Part shown: positions 181 through 11,371 of the stretch, piece after piece | How the letters are laid out: every line of letters starts with the position of its first letter | Position numbering within the stretch: the first letter of the stretch is position 1 | NCBI GenBank assembly: GCA_023150835.1 | Contig: JAKLKB010000194.1 | Location: 1 to 11,615, forward strand | Source: Myxococcota bacterium | GTDB taxonomy: Bacteria > Myxococcota_C > UBA6777 | Direction: 5' to 3' | DNA length: 11,615 nt | Notes under the pieces: model-generated | Database searches by the model: none | What the model saw: only the letters and a program-made list of their open reading frames with translations | What the model was told of the DNA's origin: nothing | Translations under genes and position numbers: made by a program

Positions 181-588
181 ATGCGTACATTGGGATGGAT
201 GGGCTTGGTTTCTGCGGTCCTTTTGGGCTTTCCAGACCAAGCAAACGCAAGGTACTACGACGCTGGCCCTGTGTGGAACAAACAACACGCAAAGCTTGTT
301 TGCCCCAACGTCTGCCAACAAAAACGCCTGTTTTGGGACGGTGATTGGATCAATCTTATTTTGGGCCGCGCTTCGGTCTGTGGATGCAGAAAATCCAACC
401 CAGCCCAAAACACCTCGAACCGCCAAGCCTGCTTGCGTCCCGGGAAAAGAAAAACGCGGCCTATTTACCACAAGCACCACGCAAAAAAAATCTGCCCCCG
501 CGTATGCCAAAAATACCGTTGCCGATGGGACGGCTATTGGCAAACCACCCTCTTCGGTACGATGTACGCCGTGTGTGGCTGCAAATAG
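181..588 (+). CDS. Small secreted protein with two mannan-binding-lectin (MVL-like) domains
   Basis: A 135-residue protein starting at ATG 181, chosen because AAGGAG lies 8 nt upstream and the start is followed at once by a signal peptide. That signal has a hydrophobic stretch around residues 5-18 and likely cleavage after ANA at residue 23. The mature part holds two homologous units, about residues 28-69 and 92-134. Each follows the pattern P-(V/I)-(W/Y)-x-K-x-H-A-K-x-(V/I)-C-P-x-V-C, then W-D-G-x-W, then VCGC. This pattern is that of the Microcystis viridis lectin (MVL) family, whose members bind oligomannose glycans. The paired cysteines (C41/C45/C67/C69 and C105/C109/C132/C134) suggest disulfides and an extracytoplasmic site. 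Basic residues are frequent. It is convergent with the next gene and probably monocistronic. Sugar binding is inferred; the domain call is fairly sure. Confidence 0.8.
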   Translation: MRTLGWMGLVSAVLLGFPDQANARYYDAGPVWNKQHAKLVCPNVCQQKRLFWDGDWINLILGRASVCGCRKSNPAQNTSNRQACLRPGKRKTRPIYHKHHAKKICPRVCQKYRCRWDGYWQTTLFGTMYAVCGCK

Positions 589-676: not shown

Positions 677-2638
677 TCACCGATCTGGTGCCGGTGTAGT
701 CGCGTCGATTGGTGGGTTTCCTTTGACAGGTTCGCCAGCCCGAACGGCTGGTGGCGGCGTCGCCAAGGTCTCGTCCAACACCCACACCATCCGAGGAAAC
801 AGCCATTCTGCACCCCATACGCCGTCGCGCAACAGATGACTACGCAAAACGCCGAAGAACGCCAGCAAAGAGACGTCTCTCGCATCAGACTGTGCAAGAT
901 GCAGATGGAGGGCCTCGTGGGGAAAGAGTTTCTTGAGTTTCTTGAGGCAACCCAACAGACAAGCCTGATCCCACCCGTTCCCCCGCCGCTCACAAGTCGG
1001 ATACGTCTTCGTTGCTGCATTCAGATCACAACCCGCCCCGATCGCTGTTCCTTTTGTGAGAAACGTCACGCCCTTGGGCCGGATGCGCAACATCACAGGC
1101 ACTCCTGTTTGCTGGGAACCCTTTCGGATTTCCGAATCGATGGACAACTGCAAGCGATAAGCCCCCACCTGCGGCCACATCAATGGCTTTAAAAGATCAC
1201 GCGCAACCCTCGGATACTTGGGAGCATCCGACAATGAATACCTACTGTCTACTCTCTTCACCACCCAACTCACCTCTACGTACCGAAGACCCGATGATCT
1301 CGGTTGTTTTTTGATCTGCTCCTCCACCCAAAGACGCAACGCCCCCAAAACCGTCGCCAACGTCGCACGTCGATCTGTTTGCAATGTCACATGAAGAGCT
1401 TGCGTACCGCTCGCTCCTTGGGCAAGAGAGAACCGAGCCATCGTAGGCTTGCCGTCCTCAGCAATCCGCAAAAAAATAGGCTCAAACGAACCCGCTTTCG
1501 GTGCATTTGGATCCAAAAACATCTCGATCGATGATCGTGGGCTTGCGTGCGCCGCAGCCGCCTCCCTTGCATGGTCCATAGCACCAACCAACCGGCGCTC
1601 CGTATCAAGCGCCACGCCTACGCACAAAGCCACCGCGAACAACGCCACACACACAAAACTTGCGCGATCTTTCAGCGCCCCGCCACGAAACACCAACATC
1701 CCCAAACCCATCAGCAACATCCCACCCACGATCACCCACACCACACCAAACGCCTGCCCCGCCCAACTCGCATAACTCCGACACAACGCCTCTTTCTGAT
1801 CGGCTGTCGCGCTCTCCAATGCGCGCAACAATTGGCTTAAATGCACCCACACCACCGCATAACCCAGCAGCATCGGCGCTCCCAACGCTCCCAACCATGC
1901 TCCCCACATCCACCCGTCCGTATCTACCACCGCATTTTCTTGTTCTCCCCCACCTTCAGCCGCTTCCCCTTGTTCGGCTTTTCGTTGGTAGCCCAACGCG
2001 ATCACCCCTACAAACACTGCACCCCCAAACACCAACCAACCCCCCAGAGGAACCGCACTCATCGCCTGAGAAGCATTCCCCCCCGCCACCCAAAAGGCAC
2101 CCGCCAAACCGCCAACCGCGATTATCCCTCCCATCGCCACCCTCGTGCTCTCCAATCGACCACGCCCCCAACCTAGCCAACAAGACCACACACTCGCGAT
2201 CAAGCTAAACAACCCACCCAAGATCCCGCCAAACACCAGCGTATTCATCGAGATCGATACATATTGCGCAGCCAACTGATACCGATATTGAACCGACGCT
2301 TTATCCAACGCCGACATTGTTTCACGAAAACCCGCGAGGGTCCCCACCCAACCCAAAACACAACTCATCACCACACTGCCCACCACAACGAAAAACAACA
2401 CGCTCCTTCCCGATGCTTGGCGATACCCCCCCCGCAACGTGAACGCGCTCAAGCCCCACAGCGACAAGACATACAACCACAAAATCGGGTGCATAACGTG
2501 CCCACCGTCGAAATAAAACCGCTTGAGTTGGTCCATATCCCCAAACATCAAAAACAACGCTACCAGCGAAATTCCCCCCAACCCCAACACACTTAACGCT
2601 TTCCCCATCTCGTAGTGGCCTTGCCGCATCGCCTTCAT
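677..2638 (-). CDS. Fusion membrane protein: two ExbB/TolQ-like modules plus ExbD-like soluble region
   Basis: A 653-residue protein starting at ATG 2638, with AAAGGAG 5 nt upstream. The start matches that of its tandem paralogue (MKAMRQ versus MKARQ). About nine hydrophobic segments are seen, near residues 13-32, 49-67, 79-99, 132-156, 167-185, 196-216, 243-266, 294-317 and 327-344, followed by about 300 soluble residues. Module 1 looks like ExbB/TolQ: GGHVMHPIL before TM2, then LGWVGTLAGF (T100) and MNTLVFGG (T133). The two threonines are 33 residues apart, as are the channel threonines of E. coli ExbB (T148/T181) and TolQ (T145/T178). The ExbB glutamate five residues before the second threonine is Ser128 here. 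Module 2 (about 196-344) repeats the pattern with Val and Ala at the threonine positions. The C-terminal region resembles ExbD/TolR periplasmic domains: a P-x-G-V-T-F strand near the middle and a final segment ending MVWVLDE. A role in proton-driven energisation is inferred; the exact family is not recognised. The tail is Pro/Ala-rich. Confidence 0.7.
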   Translation of the reverse strand: MKAMRQGHYEMGKALSVLGLGGISLVALFLMFGDMDQLKRFYFDGGHVMHPILWLYVLSLWGLSAFTLRGGYRQASGRSVLFFVVVGSVVMSCVLGWVGTLAGFRETMSALDKASVQYRYQLAAQYVSISMNTLVFGGILGGLFSLIASVWSCWLGWGRGRLESTRVAMGGIIAVGGLAGAFWVAGGNASQAMSAVPLGGWLVFGGAVFVGVIALGYQRKAEQGEAAEGGGEQENAVVDTDGWMWGAWLGALGAPMLLGYAVVWVHLSQLLRALESATADQKEALCRSYASWAGQAFGVVWVIVGGMLLMGLGMLVFRGGALKDRASFVCVALFAVALCVGVALDTERRLVGAMDHAREAAAAHASPRSSIEMFLDPNAPKAGSFEPIFLRIAEDGKPTMARFSLAQGASGTQALHVTLQTDRRATLATVLGALRLWVEEQIKKQPRSSGLRYVEVSWVVKRVDSRYSLSDAPKYPRVARDLLKPLMWPQVGAYRLQLSIDSEIRKGSQQTGVPVMLRIRPKGVTFLTKGTAIGAGCDLNAATKTYPTCERRGNGWDQACLLGCLKKLKKLFPHEALHLHLAQSDARDVSLLAFFGVLRSHLLRDGVWGAEWLFPRMVWVLDETLATPPPAVRAGEPVKGNPPIDATTPAPDR

Positions 2639-2737
2639 CTCGACTCCTTTGTTGCGAACGTTGATCTCCTTCATGGCGACTCCTTCTTGTTGCGAACGTT
2701 GACATACTTCATGGCGACTCCTTCTGTTGCGAACGTT
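2632..2737 (-). repeat. Triplicated ribosome-binding-site/start-codon repeat (37-38 bp period)
   Basis: Three tandem units are read on the minus strand: 2737-2701, 2700-2663 and 2662 to about 2632. Each opens with AACGTTCGCAACA, followed by a Shine-Dalgarno (AAGGAG or AAAGGAG), 5 nt, then ATG-AAG. The three ATGs are at 2712, 2674 and 2638. The last two are in frame with the membrane gene; the first opens a 13-codon ORF. The last is the likely main start because the paralogue aligns from there. The array fills the 104 bp between the stop at 2743 and the start at 2638. It may have arisen by duplication of the initiation region and may affect translation rate. Confidence 0.85.
2671..2712 (-). 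CDS. Candidate 13-codon leader micro-ORF
   Basis: ATG at 2712 has AAGGAG 5 nt upstream and encodes MKYVNVRNKKESP. Its TGA overlaps the in-frame ATG at 2674 as ATGA, the usual layout for translational coupling. It is a by-product of the start-region triplication, where one repeat unit is out of frame. Whether it is translated or has any role is unknown; the peptide has no recognisable features beyond a basic middle. Confidence 0.3.
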   Translation of the reverse strand: MKYVNVRNKKESP

Positions 2738-2742
2738 CACCT

Positions 2743-4116
2743 TTACCGCTTCGGCGTCGGTGCGATGTTCTCAACCGATGGCTTTGTCTCGTCGACGGGC
2801 TGAGGAGAAACAGCGGTGCGTTTCGGCATCGCCAAGGTCTCGTCCATCACCCACACCATCTCGGGAAACATCGATTCTTGTCCCGAGCCTTTTTTGGGTA
2901 TCGTGCTGCGCAACGCGTCAAACACCGACAGCAGCGAGACTTCGAGGGCGTCGGCCTGTGCCACATACACTCGGATCTTTCTTTCTTCGGGAAACACCGC
3001 TTTGATCTTCCCCAAACAGCCCGTCAAACAAGCCTGATCCCAACCGCCATCTCTTCGCCCACACGTCGGAAACGTCTTGGATTCCTCTTTCAAGTCACAC
3101 CCCACCCCGATGGCTTTTCCCCTTGTTGTGATCGTCACGCCGTTGGGTTGAACCCGCAGCGTCAACAACAACGGATGTTTCTCTTCGGAACTCCTCTCTG
3201 TTTCCGCATCCGTCGAAAGCATCAAGCCATAAGCACCGATCTCTGGCCATGTCAGCGGCTTCAAGATATCGCTCAAGATCATCGGATACTTCGGGATGTC
3301 CGCCATTGAAAACCGATTGTCCCCCCGTTTCACCAACCAAGACACATAGATACCCCGAAGATGTGGAACTTGTTTCTTCCCACGCACAAAACGTCGGTTG
3401 TGATGTCTCTCTAACTCTGCGCGTTCTTTGGACGGTCGCCCCCTCAAAAGTCCCAAGGCCCCCGAACGATCCTCCCATTCGGGTTGCTTTTTGATCTGCT
3501 CAACCACCCAAGGCCGCAACGCCCCAAGAATGGCCGCCAAAGTCGCACGGCGATCCGTTTGCAAGAGCGCACTCGTTCGTACCGTGCTTTTCGAGCCTTT
3601 CGCCTCGAAAACTCGCTTCTGCTTTGGAGACGGCACGCGAACCATCGTGTACTTTCCATCCGCAGCGATGCGCATCAGATCGGGCTTCAACGACCCCATC
3701 TCTGGGGCTTTCGGATCAGAAAGCATCCCCAGTCCAGCAGGTACACGCAATGCCGCCGAGACTTCTCCTGCTTGCGTCAAGATCTTGCGCACCCCCTCCT
3801 CTGCCCTTTGTGACAAGATCACAAACAACGCCACCATCACCGCCCCACACAACGCAAATCCACCTCGACCTTTCAACGCCCCTCCACGCAGCGCCAGCAT
3901 CCCCATCCCCAACAACAACACCCCTCCCACGATCACCAACGACACAAGAAAGCTCTGCCCCGCTAAGTTTGCATAGTTCCGACACAACGCCTCTTTTTGA
4001 TCAACAGTCGCCCGATCCAAGGCTATCAAGACTTCGGAGAGATGCATCCACACCATCGCAAAACCCAACAAAATCGGCACGCCCAACGAACACACCCACC
4101 CCAAGCGCCCCCACAA
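2743..4116 (-). CDS. C-terminal part of a frameshifted ExbB/ExbD-like fusion protein (paralogue of 677-2638)
   Basis: An open frame of 457 residues if begun at the TTG at 4116. No Shine-Dalgarno precedes that TTG, so it is better read as the continuation of the gene beginning at 4738 after a one-base frame change. It aligns with the 677-2638 protein from its second ExbB-like module onward. It has ALDRATVDQKEAL, hydrophobic segments near residues 8-27, 54-78 and 86-102, then a soluble ExbD-like region with GVTITTRGKAIG, GWDQAC and a final MVWVMDE. Compared with the paralogue it has about 40 extra residues in the soluble part (a charged Arg/Glu-rich insert around residues 210-245) and a Pro/Lys tail. 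The TAA at 2743 is followed by the triplicated start region of the next gene. It could be a separately translated ExbD-like subunit, a broken gene, or a product of programmed frameshifting. Confidence 0.6.
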   Translation of the reverse strand: MWGRLGWVCSLGVPILLGFAMVWMHLSEVLIALDRATVDQKEALCRNYANLAGQSFLVSLVIVGGVLLLGMGMLALRGGALKGRGGFALCGAVMVALFVILSQRAEEGVRKILTQAGEVSAALRVPAGLGMLSDPKAPEMGSLKPDLMRIAADGKYTMVRVPSPKQKRVFEAKGSKSTVRTSALLQTDRRATLAAILGALRPWVVEQIKKQPEWEDRSGALGLLRGRPSKERAELERHHNRRFVRGKKQVPHLRGIYVSWLVKRGDNRFSMADIPKYPMILSDILKPLTWPEIGAYGLMLSTDAETERSSEEKHPLLLTLRVQPNGVTITTRGKAIGVGCDLKEESKTFPTCGRRDGGWDQACLTGCLGKIKAVFPEERKIRVYVAQADALEVSLLSVFDALRSTIPKKGSGQESMFPEMVWVMDETLAMPKRTAVSPQPVDETKPSVENIAPTPKR

Positions 4117-4738
4117 ACACCAACCAAAACCCCCAAGGCATCACATACAGCGCAGCCGCTACGCTTCCTCCCACCACAGCATAAGCTCCGCCCAAACTGC
4201 CCAACGCGATCAGCCCACCCAACGCCATCCCCATACCGTCCAACTGCCCCCCTCGCCAGCCCATCAAACAAGCCCACACACCCGCCACCAAGCACAATCC
4301 TCCCCCCAAAAATCCGCCAAACATCGAGGTGTACATCGATAACGAAACGTATTGGCTTGCCAATCGGTGCTTTTGATCCCACGTCGCCATCTCCAGCGCC
4401 TTCGATGTCTCCAAGAACCCCGCCTCTGTGCCGATCCACCCAAACGCAGACATCGCCGCCACACCACCCACCAAGAACACAAACACACCCATTCGCCCTG
4501 ATCCACCCGAATGGATCCCCAACAGAGAAACACTCACCATCGTAGCCACCGACAGCCCATACGCCGCCAAAATCGGGTGCATAAACAACCCACCGTCAGA
4601 ATAAAACTGCATGAACCGCCCCATGCTTCCGAACATCGCAACCAACAGCAACGGCACCAACGCTCCCAACACCACCAACAACAACGCTTGCCCGATCTCG
4701 GGCTTGTTCCCTTCGGACTTGTTCTGCCTCGCTTTCAT
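4001..4738 (-). CDS. N-terminal part of the same frameshifted gene: ExbB/TolQ-like membrane domain
   Basis: A 245-residue frame from ATG 4738, preceded by GAGGGG. It is homologous to the first about 215 residues of the protein at 677-2638: GGLFMHPIL before TM2, FGWIGTEAGF (T104), then SMYTSMFGG (T137). The threonines are again exactly 33 apart, as in ExbB/TolQ. About six membrane segments are expected near residues 17-36, 52-74, 83-104, 133-158, 168-188 and 198-220. The last 26 residues (after GVFVG) match nothing in the paralogue and are probably read out of frame. This frame overlaps the C-terminal frame by 116 bp. The whole span 2743-4738 is 1996 nt, one base more than a multiple of three, consistent with a single-base insertion. 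Its start overlaps the stop of the upstream small gene as ATGA. Confidence 0.65.
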   Translation of the reverse strand: MKARQNKSEGNKPEIGQALLLVVLGALVPLLLVAMFGSMGRFMQFYSDGGLFMHPILAAYGLSVATMVSVSLLGIHSGGSGRMGVFVFLVGGVAAMSAFGWIGTEAGFLETSKALEMATWDQKHRLASQYVSLSMYTSMFGGFLGGGLCLVAGVWACLMGWRGGQLDGMGMALGGLIALGSLGGAYAVVGGSVAAALYVMPWGFWLVFVGALGVGVFVGRADFVGFCDGVDASLRSLDSLGSGDC

Positions 4739-5118: not shown

Positions 5119-5382
5119 ACAACCTCCCCTTCACTCTCACGAAGATCAAAAGCAGAGAGAGTGTCCTCGCTTGCACCCACACCCCATCGCTTTTTCTCCA
5201 AAACGCATCGTTGCTCTCTTCTGCGCAAGGGTTGAACCTTCGGCTTGCTTGTGGCAAATTGCATCGCTTGTGCGACGCGCAAGCCTCGGATGAGACGTCT
5301 TGTCTTTTCGTTAGGTCTCTCCTCTCTAGCGTGCTCGCCTCCCACACACACCCTCACGGGTCCAAAGGGCAGAGGAAGAAGA
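5119..5382. other. Divergent intergenic region between the minus operon and the lipoprotein gene
   Basis: It must hold the promoters for the minus-strand operon and the plus-strand lipoprotein gene if both are transcribed from here. I see no convincing -35/-10 pair and no clear operator. The + frame is open back to 5245, but the ribosome binding site and lipoprotein signal place the start at 5383. Short inverted pieces such as AAGGgttgaACCTT near 5228-5241 are too weak to call. Confidence 0.3.
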
Positions 5383-7728
5383 ATGTTTGTCTCGATCTTT
5401 TCACGATGTTGGTCTAAACCTGTTTACAGAATGATCGCTTTACTTTCGCTGGGTGGGTGGTTTTCGCTCGGAGCCTGCGGCGGTGGTGAATGTCGGAACG
5501 ACGGCGATTGCGAAGGCACCAAACTTTGCCGCGATGGCAAATGCACTTCAAACGCCCTCAAGCCCCTTTGCAAGACCGACACGGATTGCGCTTCGGGAGA
5601 AAAATGCGTCAAAGACGGCTGCATCAAAGCCAACTGCGTCGAAGGCGAAAAACAACCTTGCTATGAAGGCCCCAAAGGCACCACCAACGTGGGCATCTGC
5701 AAAGGCGGCCAACGCACCTGTAGCAGCGGTCAATGGGGCTGGTGCGAAGGCCAAGTCCAACCCGCATCTGAACTCTGCGATGGCATCGACAACAACTGCA
5801 ACGGCCAAGTCGACGAAGATCCCAAATGTAGCGCTTCTTGCAAAGATGGCGACACCCGCCCCTGCTATACAGGCCCCCCCGGAACCCAAGGCATCGGCAC
5901 TTGCAGCCAAGGCACCGAAACTTGCGCATCGGGCGCATGGGGCGCTTGCACAGGAGACGTCCGCCCCGCCAACAAAGAAGCCTGCGGCGATAACCTCGAC
6001 AACAATTGCAACGGCCAAGTCGACGAAGGTTGCGGATCTTGCACCGATGCCCAGACCCGACCTTGCTACACAGGCCCCGCAAACACCCGCAGCATCGGAA
6101 CTTGCAAAGACGGCACAGAGACCTGCACCGGCGGAAAATGGGGAGCCTGTACAGGCGAAGTCAAACCCGAAACCGACAAGTGCGGCGATAACCTCGACAA
6201 CGATTGCAACGGCAAGATCGACGATGCCCAAGGATGCAGCACTTCCTGCAACAACGGCCAGACCCGCCTTTGCTACACCGGCCCCGCAGGCACAAAAGGC
6301 GTCGGCGAATGCAAAGAAGGCAATGAACCCTGCCAAAATGGCCAATGGTCGGGCGCTTGCATCAACGAAGTCAAACCCCTCGGACAAGAGATCTGCGGAA
6401 ACACCAAAGACGATAACTGCAACGGCCAAGCCGACGAAGGTTGCGGTGTTTGCCGTGACGGTGACCAAGATGTCTGCTACACAGGCACCGCTGGGTGTAC
6501 CAAACAACCCGATGGCTCCTATGCTTGCGCGGGGATGTGCCGCTCAGGCATCCGCGTTTGTGCAGGCGGTCAATGGGGCGCTTGCAACAACGAAGTCAAA
6601 CCCGCCGCAAAAGAGATCTGCGGCGATAACCTCGACAACGACTGCAACAACCAAATCGACGATGGATGCGGCGTTTGCACCGCTGGGCAAACCCGCCCCT
6701 GCTACACAGGCCCCGCAAGCACCCGTGGCGTCGGCGTCTGCAAAGATGGCACCGAGTCCTGCGTCGGCGGCCAATGGGCCGCCTGCACAGGCGACGTCAA
6801 ACCCACCCCCGAGACCTGCAACAACGCTGCCGACGACAACTGCGACGGCAAGGTCGATGAAAACTGCACCAGCACCAAACTTCACCAACCTTGCCAGACC
6901 GGAAACGACTGCGACAACGGACAGCTTTGCATCAACGTCGGCACTCAAGCCGCCCCTGACACTCGCTGCTTCCAAGACTGCACCAACCGAGGCACCATCT
7001 GTCAATCCAATGCTGACGGACGCACGGGATGCGTCGACTTCGCCACCGACGGCCAAGGCAACAGCATCCAGATCTGCGCCAAACAATCCCCCACTGGTGC
7101 CGCTTGCAACATCACCCAAAGCTCCCTCTGCCTCGCAGGAAACCTCTGCACCAACAACGTCTGCAAAGCCGTTGCCACCGCCAACGAAGGCCAAACCTGC
7201 GATCCCAATGCCGCCAACCCCATCCTTTGCTCCACAGGCAATACCTGCGTAGGCTTCGGCACAGGTTACCCAAGCATCTGCCTGAAAACGTGTACCGCCA
7301 CTTGCTCCCAAAGCGGCTTCCAGTGCATCACACTTAGCAACGGCGGAAAAGCCTGTCTCCAACAAGGCTGCACCTCCGATGCCCAATGCGTCTACGCCAA
7401 CCACGTCTGCGCCACCGACTCCACCAATGGCTCCCGCTTCTGTTCTCCTTCTCCCCTCCCCGGCACCGTACCCTACGGCGGAAACTGCACCCCCTCTAAC
7501 GCTACCTTGCGCTGCCAAGCCGGTCTCGTCTGTTTGACTTTCCCCAACGACACCACCGGCTTCTGTTCACGCCAATGCAACACCTCTTCTTGCCCCTCTG
7601 GCTCACGCTGCGAAACCATCAACTCCACCACAGGCGACCGCGCTTGCTTTGTCAACTGCACCACCAACGCCAACTGCCTCTCCACCCAAAACTGCGACTC
7701 TCGCATCAACGCTTGTTATCCCAAATAA
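5383..7728 (+). CDS. Large Cys-rich surface lipoprotein with six MopE-like metal-binding repeats
   Basis: A 781-residue protein. ATG 5383 is chosen for its GAGG 7 nt upstream and the signal that follows: hydrophobic MIALLSLGGWFSLGAC with lipobox L-G-A-C and Cys32 as the lipidated residue. Gly-Gly-Gly after the Cys favours outer-membrane sorting. Residues 33-84 are a small Cys-rich lead-in (NDGDC, TDTDC). Residues 85-495 contain six units of about 63-75 residues. Each has C-x-x-G-x-x-R-x-CYTGP, W-G/A-x-C, then an acidic CGDNLDNDCNG-type loop. This last part matches the putative metal-binding motif named for MopE, a surface copper-binding protein of Methylococcus, and the D-x-D-N spacing is also compatible with Ca2+. 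Residues 496-781 are further Cys-rich segments without the repeat. Cytochrome or enzymatic motifs are absent. It stands divergent from the ExbB/ExbD-like operon. Metal or ligand binding at the cell surface is inferred. Confidence 0.85.
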   Translation: MFVSIFSRCWSKPVYRMIALLSLGGWFSLGACGGGECRNDGDCEGTKLCRDGKCTSNALKPLCKTDTDCASGEKCVKDGCIKANCVEGEKQPCYEGPKGTTNVGICKGGQRTCSSGQWGWCEGQVQPASELCDGIDNNCNGQVDEDPKCSASCKDGDTRPCYTGPPGTQGIGTCSQGTETCASGAWGACTGDVRPANKEACGDNLDNNCNGQVDEGCGSCTDAQTRPCYTGPANTRSIGTCKDGTETCTGGKWGACTGEVKPETDKCGDNLDNDCNGKIDDAQGCSTSCNNGQTRLCYTGPAGTKGVGECKEGNEPCQNGQWSGACINEVKPLGQEICGNTKDDNCNGQADEGCGVCRDGDQDVCYTGTAGCTKQPDGSYACAGMCRSGIRVCAGGQWGACNNEVKPAAKEICGDNLDNDCNNQIDDGCGVCTAGQTRPCYTGPASTRGVGVCKDGTESCVGGQWAACTGDVKPTPETCNNAADDNCDGKVDENCTSTKLHQPCQTGNDCDNGQLCINVGTQAAPDTRCFQDCTNRGTICQSNADGRTGCVDFATDGQGNSIQICAKQSPTGAACNITQSSLCLAGNLCTNNVCKAVATANEGQTCDPNAANPILCSTGNTCVGFGTGYPSICLKTCTATCSQSGFQCITLSNGGKACLQQGCTSDAQCVYANHVCATDSTNGSRFCSPSPLPGTVPYGGNCTPSNATLRCQAGLVCLTFPNDTTGFCSRQCNTSSCPSGSRCETINSTTGDRACFVNCTTNANCLSTQNCDSRINACYPK
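5635..6867 (+). repeat. Six in-gene MopE-type repeats
   Basis: Units begin near 5635, 5840, 6040, 6248, 6451 and 6676. The acidic loops read DGIDNNCNGQVDE, DNLDNNCNGQVDE, DNLDNDCNGKIDD, NTKDDNCNGQADE, DNLDNDCNNQIDD and NAADDNCDGKVDE. Unit 5 carries an extra Cys-rich insert after CYTGTAG and lacks the usual GPxxTxGxG segment. The units have diverged in both protein and codons, so the array is not a recent expansion. Confidence 0.85.
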
Positions 7729-7997: not shown

Positions 7998-8057
7998 AGC
8001 GGCCCATCAGGCGGAAGAGCGGCCCATCAGGCGGGAGAGCGGCCCATCAGGGCTTGG
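7998..8057. repeat. 20-bp tandem repeat spanning the 3' end of the Rpn-like gene
   Basis: AGCGGCCCATCAGGCGGAAG occurs at 7998-8017 and, with one change, at 8018-8037. A partial third copy (first 14 bases) is at 8038. The stop codon of the minus-strand gene (8027-8029) lies within the array. The array writes the last residues, GRSPA, where the paralogue ends KSSAT, so repeat expansion has replaced the original gene end. Confidence 0.75.
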
Positions 8058-8947
8058 ATGCGAGACAGCGGCAAAGAAAGCATCTCCGCGACCTCTTGGG
8101 CATCAAAGCCACGCTCCAGAAGGCGCTGCGCTGCCATCTCCAATCCTTTCTCCAATCCTTTCTCCAATCCTTTCTCCAATCCTTCTTCAAGGCCGATCTC
8201 TCGGCCTTCTTCAAGGCCGATCTCTCGGCCTTCTTTGCGCCCGAGTTCGCGCAAGACTTCCTCGCGGGTGTCTCGGAGGTCTCTGATATCTTCCAGATCT
8301 TCGGGCGTAAGTTGCGAAGGGTGCTGTGTCTGGCTCATAAAGAAGCTCCTATCGAATGTGTTGAGTAGTGTGGCGTAGGGTTCGATGTGATCCGCAAAGA
8401 TTTTAATCACGGTGTCTCGGCGTTGTCTACCCTTTCCAAGCAAGCACAACAACAAGGTCTCTTCGCGCAACGCAAGCTCCGCCGTATTGATAGCGTAGAC
8501 CGTTTCGCGGCGGAATCCCTGCCACCGGCGCAAGCCTGTTTCCACCACCTCACCCTTTTCACCAAACACCGCATCCATCGCCGTTTCAGGCCAATAATTA
8601 AAGATTAGCCACAACACGCCCTTGGGATAGGGCTGGCCGAGCTTGTCTCGATACCAACGCTGCATCGCAAGGCGAAGCTTGGACAGGTTGGCTTCAAGGC
8701 GTTCTTCCGTCACGCTTCCGCTAAATGCTTCGATAAGGCAGCGCGCATCACCCGTGAGCCGAGCAAGCAAACCCACCCCTCGAATCGCTGGAAGCGGTTG
8801 ATTCGGAATCAGCAACACATCTGCCCGAAAATTATCAGGCAACAGATCCGTCCCCACCTCCACAAGCGTATGCTCACCAAAAATCCCCGCCACAAGGTAC
8901 TTGCTCAGCCGATCCTCAAATTGTTTAAGCCTAGGTTTTTCCGTCAT
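8027..8947 (-). CDS. Rpn/PD-(D/E)XK-transposase-like protein, copy 1
   Basis: A 306-residue protein from ATG 8947 with AGGAGG 7 nt upstream. The layout matches Rpn/YhgA-like proteins (recombination-promoting nuclease or PD-(D/E)XK family transposase). The N-terminal part has VEVGTDLLPDNFRADVLLI (D43) and CLIEAFSG (E73). It is followed by an aromatic-rich middle, a low-complexity run of Gly-Leu-Glu repeats (about 240-270), and the small C-terminal helix pair AAQRLLERGFDAQEVAEMLSLPLSRI typical of this family. The expected E-x-K/Q triad reads E-A-F, so nuclease activity is uncertain. Known family members cut DNA and promote recA-independent recombination. Its near-twin lies at 10341-11240. No terminal inverted repeats were seen, so it is not called an insertion sequence. 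Confidence 0.65.
   Translation of the reverse strand: MTEKPRLKQFEDRLSKYLVAGIFGEHTLVEVGTDLLPDNFRADVLLIPNQPLPAIRGVGLLARLTGDARCLIEAFSGSVTEERLEANLSKLRLAMQRWYRDKLGQPYPKGVLWLIFNYWPETAMDAVFGEKGEVVETGLRRWQGFRRETVYAINTAELALREETLLLCLLGKGRQRRDTVIKIFADHIEPYATLLNTFDRSFFMSQTQHPSQLTPEDLEDIRDLRDTREEVLRELGRKEGREIGLEEGREIGLEEGLEKGLEKGLEKGLEMAAQRLLERGFDAQEVAEMLSLPLSRIQALMGRSPA
8138..8230 (-). repeat. In-gene short tandem repeats encoding Gly-Leu-Glu runs (copy 1)
   Basis: On the plus strand, four 12-bp units of CTCCAATCCTTT type (8138-8185) encode GLEK steps. Two 24-bp units (8183-8206, 8207-8230) each encode the eight residues GREIGLEE. Both unit lengths keep frame. The paralogue has the same four 12-bp units but a single 24-bp unit. 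Confidence 0.9.
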
Positions 8948-9020
8948 CTCCTCTCCTCCTGCCTCTCCTTGATACAACAAGGAACCTCAATGGTTTCGAG
9001 CCACTTCTTCCGCCTGTCCC

Positions 9021-10340: not shown

Positions 10341-11240
10341 TTACGTCGCGGAGGATTTAGCAAGTTCTTGGATGCGAGACAAGGGGAGGGACAACATCTC
10401 TGCGACATCTTGGAGACTGAGACCGTGTTGGAGAAGGCGTTGCGCAGCCATCTCCAATCCTTTCTCCAATCCTTTCTCCAATCCTTTCTCCAATCCTTCT
10501 TCAAGGCCGATCTCTCGGCCTTCTTTGCGCCCAAGTTCGCGCAAGACTTCCTCGCGGGTGTCTCGGAGGTCTCTGATATCTTCCAGATCTTCAGGCGTAA
10601 GTTGCGAAGGGTGCTGTGTCTGGCTCATAAAGAAGCTCCTATCGAATGTGTTGAGTAGTGTGGCGTAGGGTTCGATGTGATCCGCAAAGATTTTAATCAC
10701 GGCCTCTCGGCGTTGTCTACCCTTGCCAAGCAAGCATAACAACAAGGTTTCTTCGCGCACCGCGATCTCTGCCGTATTGATGGCGTAGACCGTTTCGCGG
10801 CGGAATCCCTGCCATCGGCGCAAGCCTGTTTCCACCACCTCACCTTGTTCGCAAAAAACAGATTCGATGGCGGTTTCCGGCCAATAGTTAAAGATCAGCC
10901 AAAGGACACCTTTCGGATAGCGCAAACCGAGCCCGTCCCGATAAGCACGTTGGATCGCAAGGCGGAGTTTGGAAAGATTGGCCTCAAGGCGCTCTTCGGT
11001 GACGGAACCACTAAACGCTTCGATCAGACAACGCGCATCCCCCGTCAAACGTGTGAGCAAACCCACACCTTGCATCGTTGTTGGCAGCGGTTGATGGGGG
11101 ATCAACAATACATCCGCACGAAAATTATCTGGAAGCAAATCCGTCCCCACCTCCACAAGGGCATACTCCCCAAAAACGCCCGCCACGAGATACTTGCTCA
11201 ACCGATCCTCAAACTGCTTCAACCTGTTTTTTTCGGCCAT
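10341..11240 (-). CDS. Rpn/PD-(D/E)XK-transposase-like protein, copy 2
   Basis: A 299-residue protein from ATG 11240 with GAGGGAG just upstream. The upstream in-frame extension to 11342 lacks a ribosome binding site and is not shared with copy 1. It aligns end to end with the protein at 8027-8947: LKQFEDRLSKYLVAG, VEVGTDLLPDNFRADVLLI (D43), CLIEAFSG, the Gly-Leu-Glu run (about 241-263) and the C-terminal helices. The E-A-F replacement of the usual E-x-K/Q is shared, so it is a trait of this subfamily. DNA similarity to copy 1 is uneven: nearly perfect over the 3' third and clearly lower in the 5' half. The C-terminus AKSSAT is probably the original form. Confidence 0.65.
   Translation of the reverse strand: MAEKNRLKQFEDRLSKYLVAGVFGEYALVEVGTDLLPDNFRADVLLIPHQPLPTTMQGVGLLTRLTGDARCLIEAFSGSVTEERLEANLSKLRLAIQRAYRDGLGLRYPKGVLWLIFNYWPETAIESVFCEQGEVVETGLRRWQGFRRETVYAINTAEIAVREETLLLCLLGKGRQRREAVIKIFADHIEPYATLLNTFDRSFFMSQTQHPSQLTPEDLEDIRDLRDTREEVLRELGRKEGREIGLEEGLEKGLEKGLEKGLEMAAQRLLQHGLSLQDVAEMLSLPLSRIQELAKSSAT
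10452..10520 (-). repeat. In-gene short tandem repeats encoding Gly-Leu-Glu runs (copy 2)
   Basis: Four 12-bp units (10452-10499) and one 24-bp unit (10497-10520), identical in sequence to those of copy 1, which has two 24-bp units. Confidence 0.9.
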
Positions 11241-11371
11241 CTTCTCCCTCAAGACTCCATACAAAACGCAAACACCGCAACCTCCGTGCGGTGGTATCCC
11301 AAAGCACATCCACCTCCAAGAAAACACACATCGAAGAGCCACCGTACATTCTCTCGGTATCGAAAGATTCT

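Follow-up and report, generated by a model that had tools for sequence, protein, structure and literature searches.

Do the tandem genes at positions 677-4738 encode a proton-driven motor whose subunits have been joined into one chain, or a protein that retains the shapes of such a motor after losing the residues that handle protons? Motors with a 5:2 subunit ratio are thought to need separate ring and axle subunits with an Asp residue in the membrane. A preliminary description of the locus proposed that ExbB-like and ExbD-like parts share one polypeptide here and make up a motor of altered, 1:1 composition. The window, by which we mean the entire stretch of 11,615 nucleotides that was analysed, belongs to a genome of 7.56 Mb in 239 contigs (G000). 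Its GTDB phylum is represented in the set available by five genomes, all from one family.

The gene that we call copy 1 (677-2638, minus strand) is a complete ORF for a protein of 653 aa (P0001), which appears to be a fused inner-membrane protein derived from ExbB and ExbD. A hydropathy scan finds nine membrane segments (residues 15-31, 52-68, 80-96, 134-150, 167-183, 198-214, 249-265, 299-315 and 328-344), in agreement with the roughly nine segments in about 650 residues noted before, and the loop charges fit a cytoplasmic N-terminus and a periplasmic C-terminal region beginning at residue 345. Residues 39-69 (2432-2524, minus strand) include a FYFDGGHVMHPIL motif, which matches FYVEGGIFMHPIA of the ExbB from the same genome, and TM1 (hydrophobic segment 52-68); this region is the equivalent of the ExbB N-terminus. 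Immediately 5' of copy 1 (2638-2740, minus strand) lies a cassette of the form AACGTTCGCAACA..AGGAGTCG..ATGAAG, which occurs three times in the window and twice in a second genome of the same genus (G001). The cassette provides several Shine-Dalgarno/ATG starts as well as a mini-ORF of 13 codons, the TGA of which overlaps the following ATG.

Conventional searches say little about the origin of this protein. The copy 1 protein has no significant match in Pfam, NCBIfam or PDB sequences, neither PF01618 (even at a maximum E-value of 10) nor PF02472 is found by Pfam in the fused proteins, and a match to PEN-2 (E 0.045) was taken as chance. However, a search of the same genome with the copy 1 protein returned copy 2 together with an ExbB gene and an ExbD gene that share one operon on contig C134. 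Profile-profile comparison with hhalign then relates separate segments of the chain to such subunits. Residues 1-165 match the AglR-type ExbB clade (98.1%, E 9e-14) with the alignment on TM2-TM3, which corresponds to residues ~93-150 of copy 1, and residues 500-653 match the ExbD1 clade of the same genome (98.8%, E 1e-16). Residues 240-345 give a weaker match to ExbB (69%, E 4e-5) and resemble residues 1-165 of copy 1 itself (67%, E 5e-5). For each of these three segments, all 100 column shuffles scored below the real alignment, so the claim that ExbB-like and ExbD-like parts are present in a single polypeptide is well founded. Judged by these profiles, residues 93-150 are homologous to ExbB and residues 510-625 to ExbD, and residues ~250-315 very probably form a second ExbB hairpin, which the preliminary description had overlooked. 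The two ExbB TM2-TM3 repeats are thus encoded by 2159-2401 (residues 80-160) and, for the weaker one, 1679-1906 (residues 245-320), both on the minus strand. A full 4+4 internal duplication, in which TM0-3 would equal TM4-7, is unsupported beyond the TM2-TM3 part (3.6%). The GGxxMHPIL motif pointed out previously is present as GGHVMHPIL and GGLFMHPIL in the two copies.

The ExbD-like end begins after the last membrane segment (residues 328-344; 1607-1657, minus strand; FVCVALFAVALCVGVAL), which occupies the place of the ExbD transmembrane helix and carries no acidic residue. Residues 510-625 (764-1111, minus strand) make up an ExbD/TolR-type periplasmic domain with a conserved Cys pair, C537 and C564, common to all aligned ExbD1-type domains. 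In a model of the C-terminal half, most of residues 512-601 are confident (pLDDT block means 72-86) and follow the order beta-beta-alpha-beta-alpha-beta. The best VIA-align match of this domain is E. coli TolR (5by4; Z 7.5, 84 residues, rmsd 2.9 A), and the same list also holds ExbD and another TolR, with unrelated folds close behind at Z 6-7. The full-length AlphaFold2 monomer model of copy 1 is of low confidence (pLDDT 45), and its Foldseek matches to GPCRs and ABC transporters were discarded as meaningless. The large ExbD-like soluble region originally described is upheld for residues ~510-625 and not for residues 360-505 (1124-1561, minus strand), where ExbD sequence signal is absent and 14 of 100 shuffles score equally high. 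We rejected this stretch as an identified ExbD domain and treat it as a periplasmic region of candidate ExbD-like origin, based on a weak secondary-structure pattern (beta-beta-beta-alpha-beta) in a low-confidence model. With two ExbB-like repeats and one proven, perhaps two, ExbD-like domains, a 1:1 ratio does not describe the chain.

Could this chain carry protons? In canonical motors the proton passes via an Asp of the ExbD helix, along a path lined by residues of ExbB TM2-TM3, and Asp25 of E. coli ExbD has been called essential (PMC9022066). The membrane segments of copy 1, both parts of copy 2 and a distant homologue from another genus (G003) contain no Asp or Glu at all, whereas canonical motors in the same genomes retain at least one Asp-bearing ExbD. 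We read the Thr positions (E. coli ExbB numbering) from an alignment with 20 standalone ExbB proteins of this and other genomes. The Thr148 column holds Thr in copy 1 and copy 2 and Ser in the G003 homologue. The Thr181 column, which is Thr in all 20 standalone proteins, holds Leu, Ser and Leu, respectively. A Thr does follow the GT motif at +33 in both copies, as had been observed, but it is not the Thr181 equivalent; it falls one position short of that column, as the AglR-type loop has one extra residue. In addition, the large cytoplasmic domain of ExbB between TM1 and TM2 is deleted in copy 1, whose loop there has ~11 residues (69-79) compared with roughly 90 in the ExbB of the same genome.

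Without the proton-carrying residues, the protein is unlikely to be a motor and more probably serves as a motionless anchor or regulator. We consider it somewhat probable that the gene is a lineage-specific ExbB-ExbD fusion that arose from an AglRQS-like motor, lacks the known proton relay, and might act as a static periplasmic anchor or regulator. The protein would reside in the inner membrane and extend its ExbD-like end into the periplasm. It would neither conduct protons nor rotate, and it may associate with canonical ExbB rings. It could present an ExbD-type binding surface to the partners of a canonical motor, either peptidoglycan or a GltG/TonB-like transducer. A more specific version of this idea is possible, although we give it considerably less weight. 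One chain might combine two membrane modules of ExbB type with two periplasmic modules of ExbD type, in the order ExbD2-ExbD1, and so mimic the heterodimeric axle of a motor. The resulting pseudo-motor would then be paralysed and would compete with, or regulate, the canonical AglRQS-like motor of its own cell.

The second gene complicates the picture. Copy 2 and copy 1 are indeed tandem paralogues, with 45-54% identity in three stretches. However, copy 2, at first treated as one chain, cannot be read as a single protein of ~665 residues, because 2743-4738 taken as one frame holds in-frame stops. Its N-terminal and C-terminal parts lie in different frames: the 5' frame (4001-4738, minus strand, 245 aa) corresponds to copy 1 residues 9-213 before it runs out of frame, and the 3' frame (2743-4116, minus strand, 457 aa) matches residues 242-653. 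The break falls within 4088-4125 (minus strand), a junction where ~120 bp of the copy 1 linker has no counterpart. In the sequence as given, copy 2 is therefore not one chain and is frameshifted near 4090-4125.

Relatives show that the fused layout is not peculiar to the window. G001 carries copy 1 at 88% identity (L022:6016-7977, minus strand). In place of the TAT of the window, codon 56 of that gene is an in-frame TAG, which is either a nonsense mutation or an assembly error. Copy 2 of G001 is cut by a contig end, and an intact copy 2 was found neither in the window nor in G001, whose contig ends inside the gene. The homologue in G003 has 619 aa and the same layout as copy 1. The fused gene is absent from the two genomes of genus g2, and a profile search of 386 genomes gave no full-length match outside the family. 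Beyond the family, this profile picked up standalone ExbB only, in five unrelated genomes, which supports the ExbB origin of the fused proteins.

The frameshift in copy 2 of the window and the TAG in copy 1 of G001 suggest that the family may be decaying. This is the chief rival to an anchor or regulator, as each of the two genomes of the genus has one broken copy, and on this view an ExbB-ExbD fusion has left two remnants that are in the course of being lost. The deletion of ~120 bp that accompanies the frame break and the lack of the gene in genus g2 both fit. Between the window and G001, copy 1 gives dS 0.173, dN 0.058 and dN/dS 0.34, and the C-terminal part of copy 2 gives dN/dS 0.46; both constraints are looser than that of the neighbouring lectin gene (0.15). 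Yet purifying selection reaches significance for both (Fisher p 3e-10 for copy 1; p 0.004 for the C-terminal part of copy 2). Moreover, the frames are intact in copy 1 of the window and in G003, and false indels and stops are possible in MAG assemblies. We regard decay as unlikely.

A less probable explanation of the frame break is that copy 2 is made as two polypeptides, an ExbB-like half and an ExbB/ExbD-like half, through overlapping frames or frameshifting, and that these pair with copy 1. The two frames overlap by ~116 bases, and each retains coding similarity to copy 1. However, a strong slippery site is absent at the junction, the break coincides with a non-triplet deletion such as an accident would leave, and the G001 contig ends before the junction.

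Very little is left in favour of a functional proton motor built from a single chain, with a changed subunit ratio and another residue to carry the proton. The presence of ExbB and ExbD parts in one chain and the retention of the Thr148 position in both window copies would suit such a motor, but the membrane segments lack any acidic residue, the Thr181 position and the ExbB cytoplasmic domain are lost, and at the Thr148 position the distant homologue carries Ser, so the proposal of a 1:1 motor is not sustained. Least probable of all is an unrelated polytopic membrane protein that resembles ExbB/ExbD in motif only, for which the absence of significant Pfam, NCBIfam and PDB sequence matches could be cited, because two independent profile matches (E ~1e-13 and ~1e-16) point to neighbouring genes within a single operon of this genome, standalone ExbB from unrelated genomes is recovered by the family profile as well, and the profile matches with their shuffle controls have already largely refuted it.

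The fused genes are adjacent to neither an AglRQS-like operon nor a TonB-like gene, which counts against an anchor or regulator. On one side is the lectin gene (181-588, plus strand), which codes for a secreted mannan-binding lectin of the MVL type with two repeats (PF12151, E 2e-18) and also neighbours the fused genes in G001. On the other side, 5245-7728 (plus strand) codes for a Cys-rich protein of 827 aa that contains six or more metal-binding repeats of the MopE type (PF11617, E 1e-23). The window also contains two near-identical paralogues at 8027-8980 and 10341-11342 (both minus strand), which are possibly Rpn/transposase-like according to a weak NCBIfam match of the first one and which differ in the number of their C-terminal GLEKGLE/GREIGLEE repeats.

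If the static anchor or regulator is correct, a conserved fusion in which the shapes persist without the residues that handle protons would amount to a natural pseudo-motor, analogous to a pseudokinase, and could be used to study which roles ExbD-type domains have besides proton-driven rotation. Parts of ExbB and ExbD have been recombined repeatedly in this small uncultured myxobacterial lineage. Such a fusion is not new in kind, and what is unusual here is a degenerate, multi-repeat fusion that is kept under selection; we found no description of one in the literature searched.

Among known systems, the rotary motors of 5:2 stoichiometry (ExbB/ExbD, TolQ/TolR and MotA/MotB) share with the fused protein the TM2-TM3 hairpin of the A subunit and the periplasmic fold of the B subunit. 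The fused protein differs from them in being a single chain with no membrane Asp, a short TM1-TM2 loop, extra TM pairs, and no PF01618 or PF02472 match.

The closest relatives of its parts are in the C134 operon, which codes for ExbB, ExbD1, ExbD2, a protein resembling the TonB/TolA C-terminus, and a putative outer-membrane protein, and whose ExbB-ExbD core is conserved across the family. This operon resembles the AglRQS/Glt core of Myxococcus, a label that is based on gene order and published descriptions rather than on M. xanthus sequences (PMC3169522, PMC9389320). AglRQS is the gliding motor of Myxococcus xanthus, in which AglR is ExbB/TolQ-like and AglQ and AglS are ExbD/TolR-like. Within the fused protein, the ExbB-derived portion is closest to the AglR-type ExbB of the operon, and the C-terminal ExbD-derived portion to its first ExbD. 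The window genes depart from the operon in their fused subunits, in the loss of the ExbB cytoplasmic domain and of the Asp and Thr181 positions, and in the lack of a neighbouring transducer gene. In the AglRQS-like operons of the family (L023:5599-6213 and L023:4855-5406, both minus strand; L127:1749-2279; L126:1554-2093), the first ExbD consistently has PLMN, with Asn at the ExbD Asp position, while the second keeps SLMD, which suggests a heterodimeric axle with a single Asp.

The same genome also contains a canonical ExbB-ExbD fusion (L098:3672-4787, plus strand, contig C87), so an ExbB-ExbD fusion is not in itself unique. This protein is one frame of 371 aa with the LLGT/TT and PLID residues intact, it is part of a TonB operon, where it is flanked by a long, TtpC-like ExbB and another ExbD, and its type is conserved in G001 and G003. 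In two unrelated genomes (G182 and G250), ExbB and ExbD also apparently share one open frame, as judged from frame lengths. Like the window genes, the C87 gene places ExbB and ExbD in one open frame. However, it is a plain head-to-tail fusion that keeps its functional residues, whereas the window fusion is degenerate. Of the two, the C87 fusion is the better fit to the idea of a forced 1:1 motor.

Finally, two proteins of the family (L026:3316-4473, minus strand; L027:3136-4221, plus strand) are apparently secreted and have no Asp-bearing helix. In the first, hhalign identifies a tandem of ExbD2 and ExbD1 domains (97.8% and 99.1%), and the second domain of the other is ExbD1-type. These proteins lack an ExbB part, and their first domain, clearly ExbD2-type in L026, has no detectable sequence relationship to residues 360-505 of copy 1. 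However, they resemble the fused protein in using a C-terminal ExbD1-type domain outside a motor, and their occurrence suggests that this family also employs ExbD domains in roles unconnected with motors.
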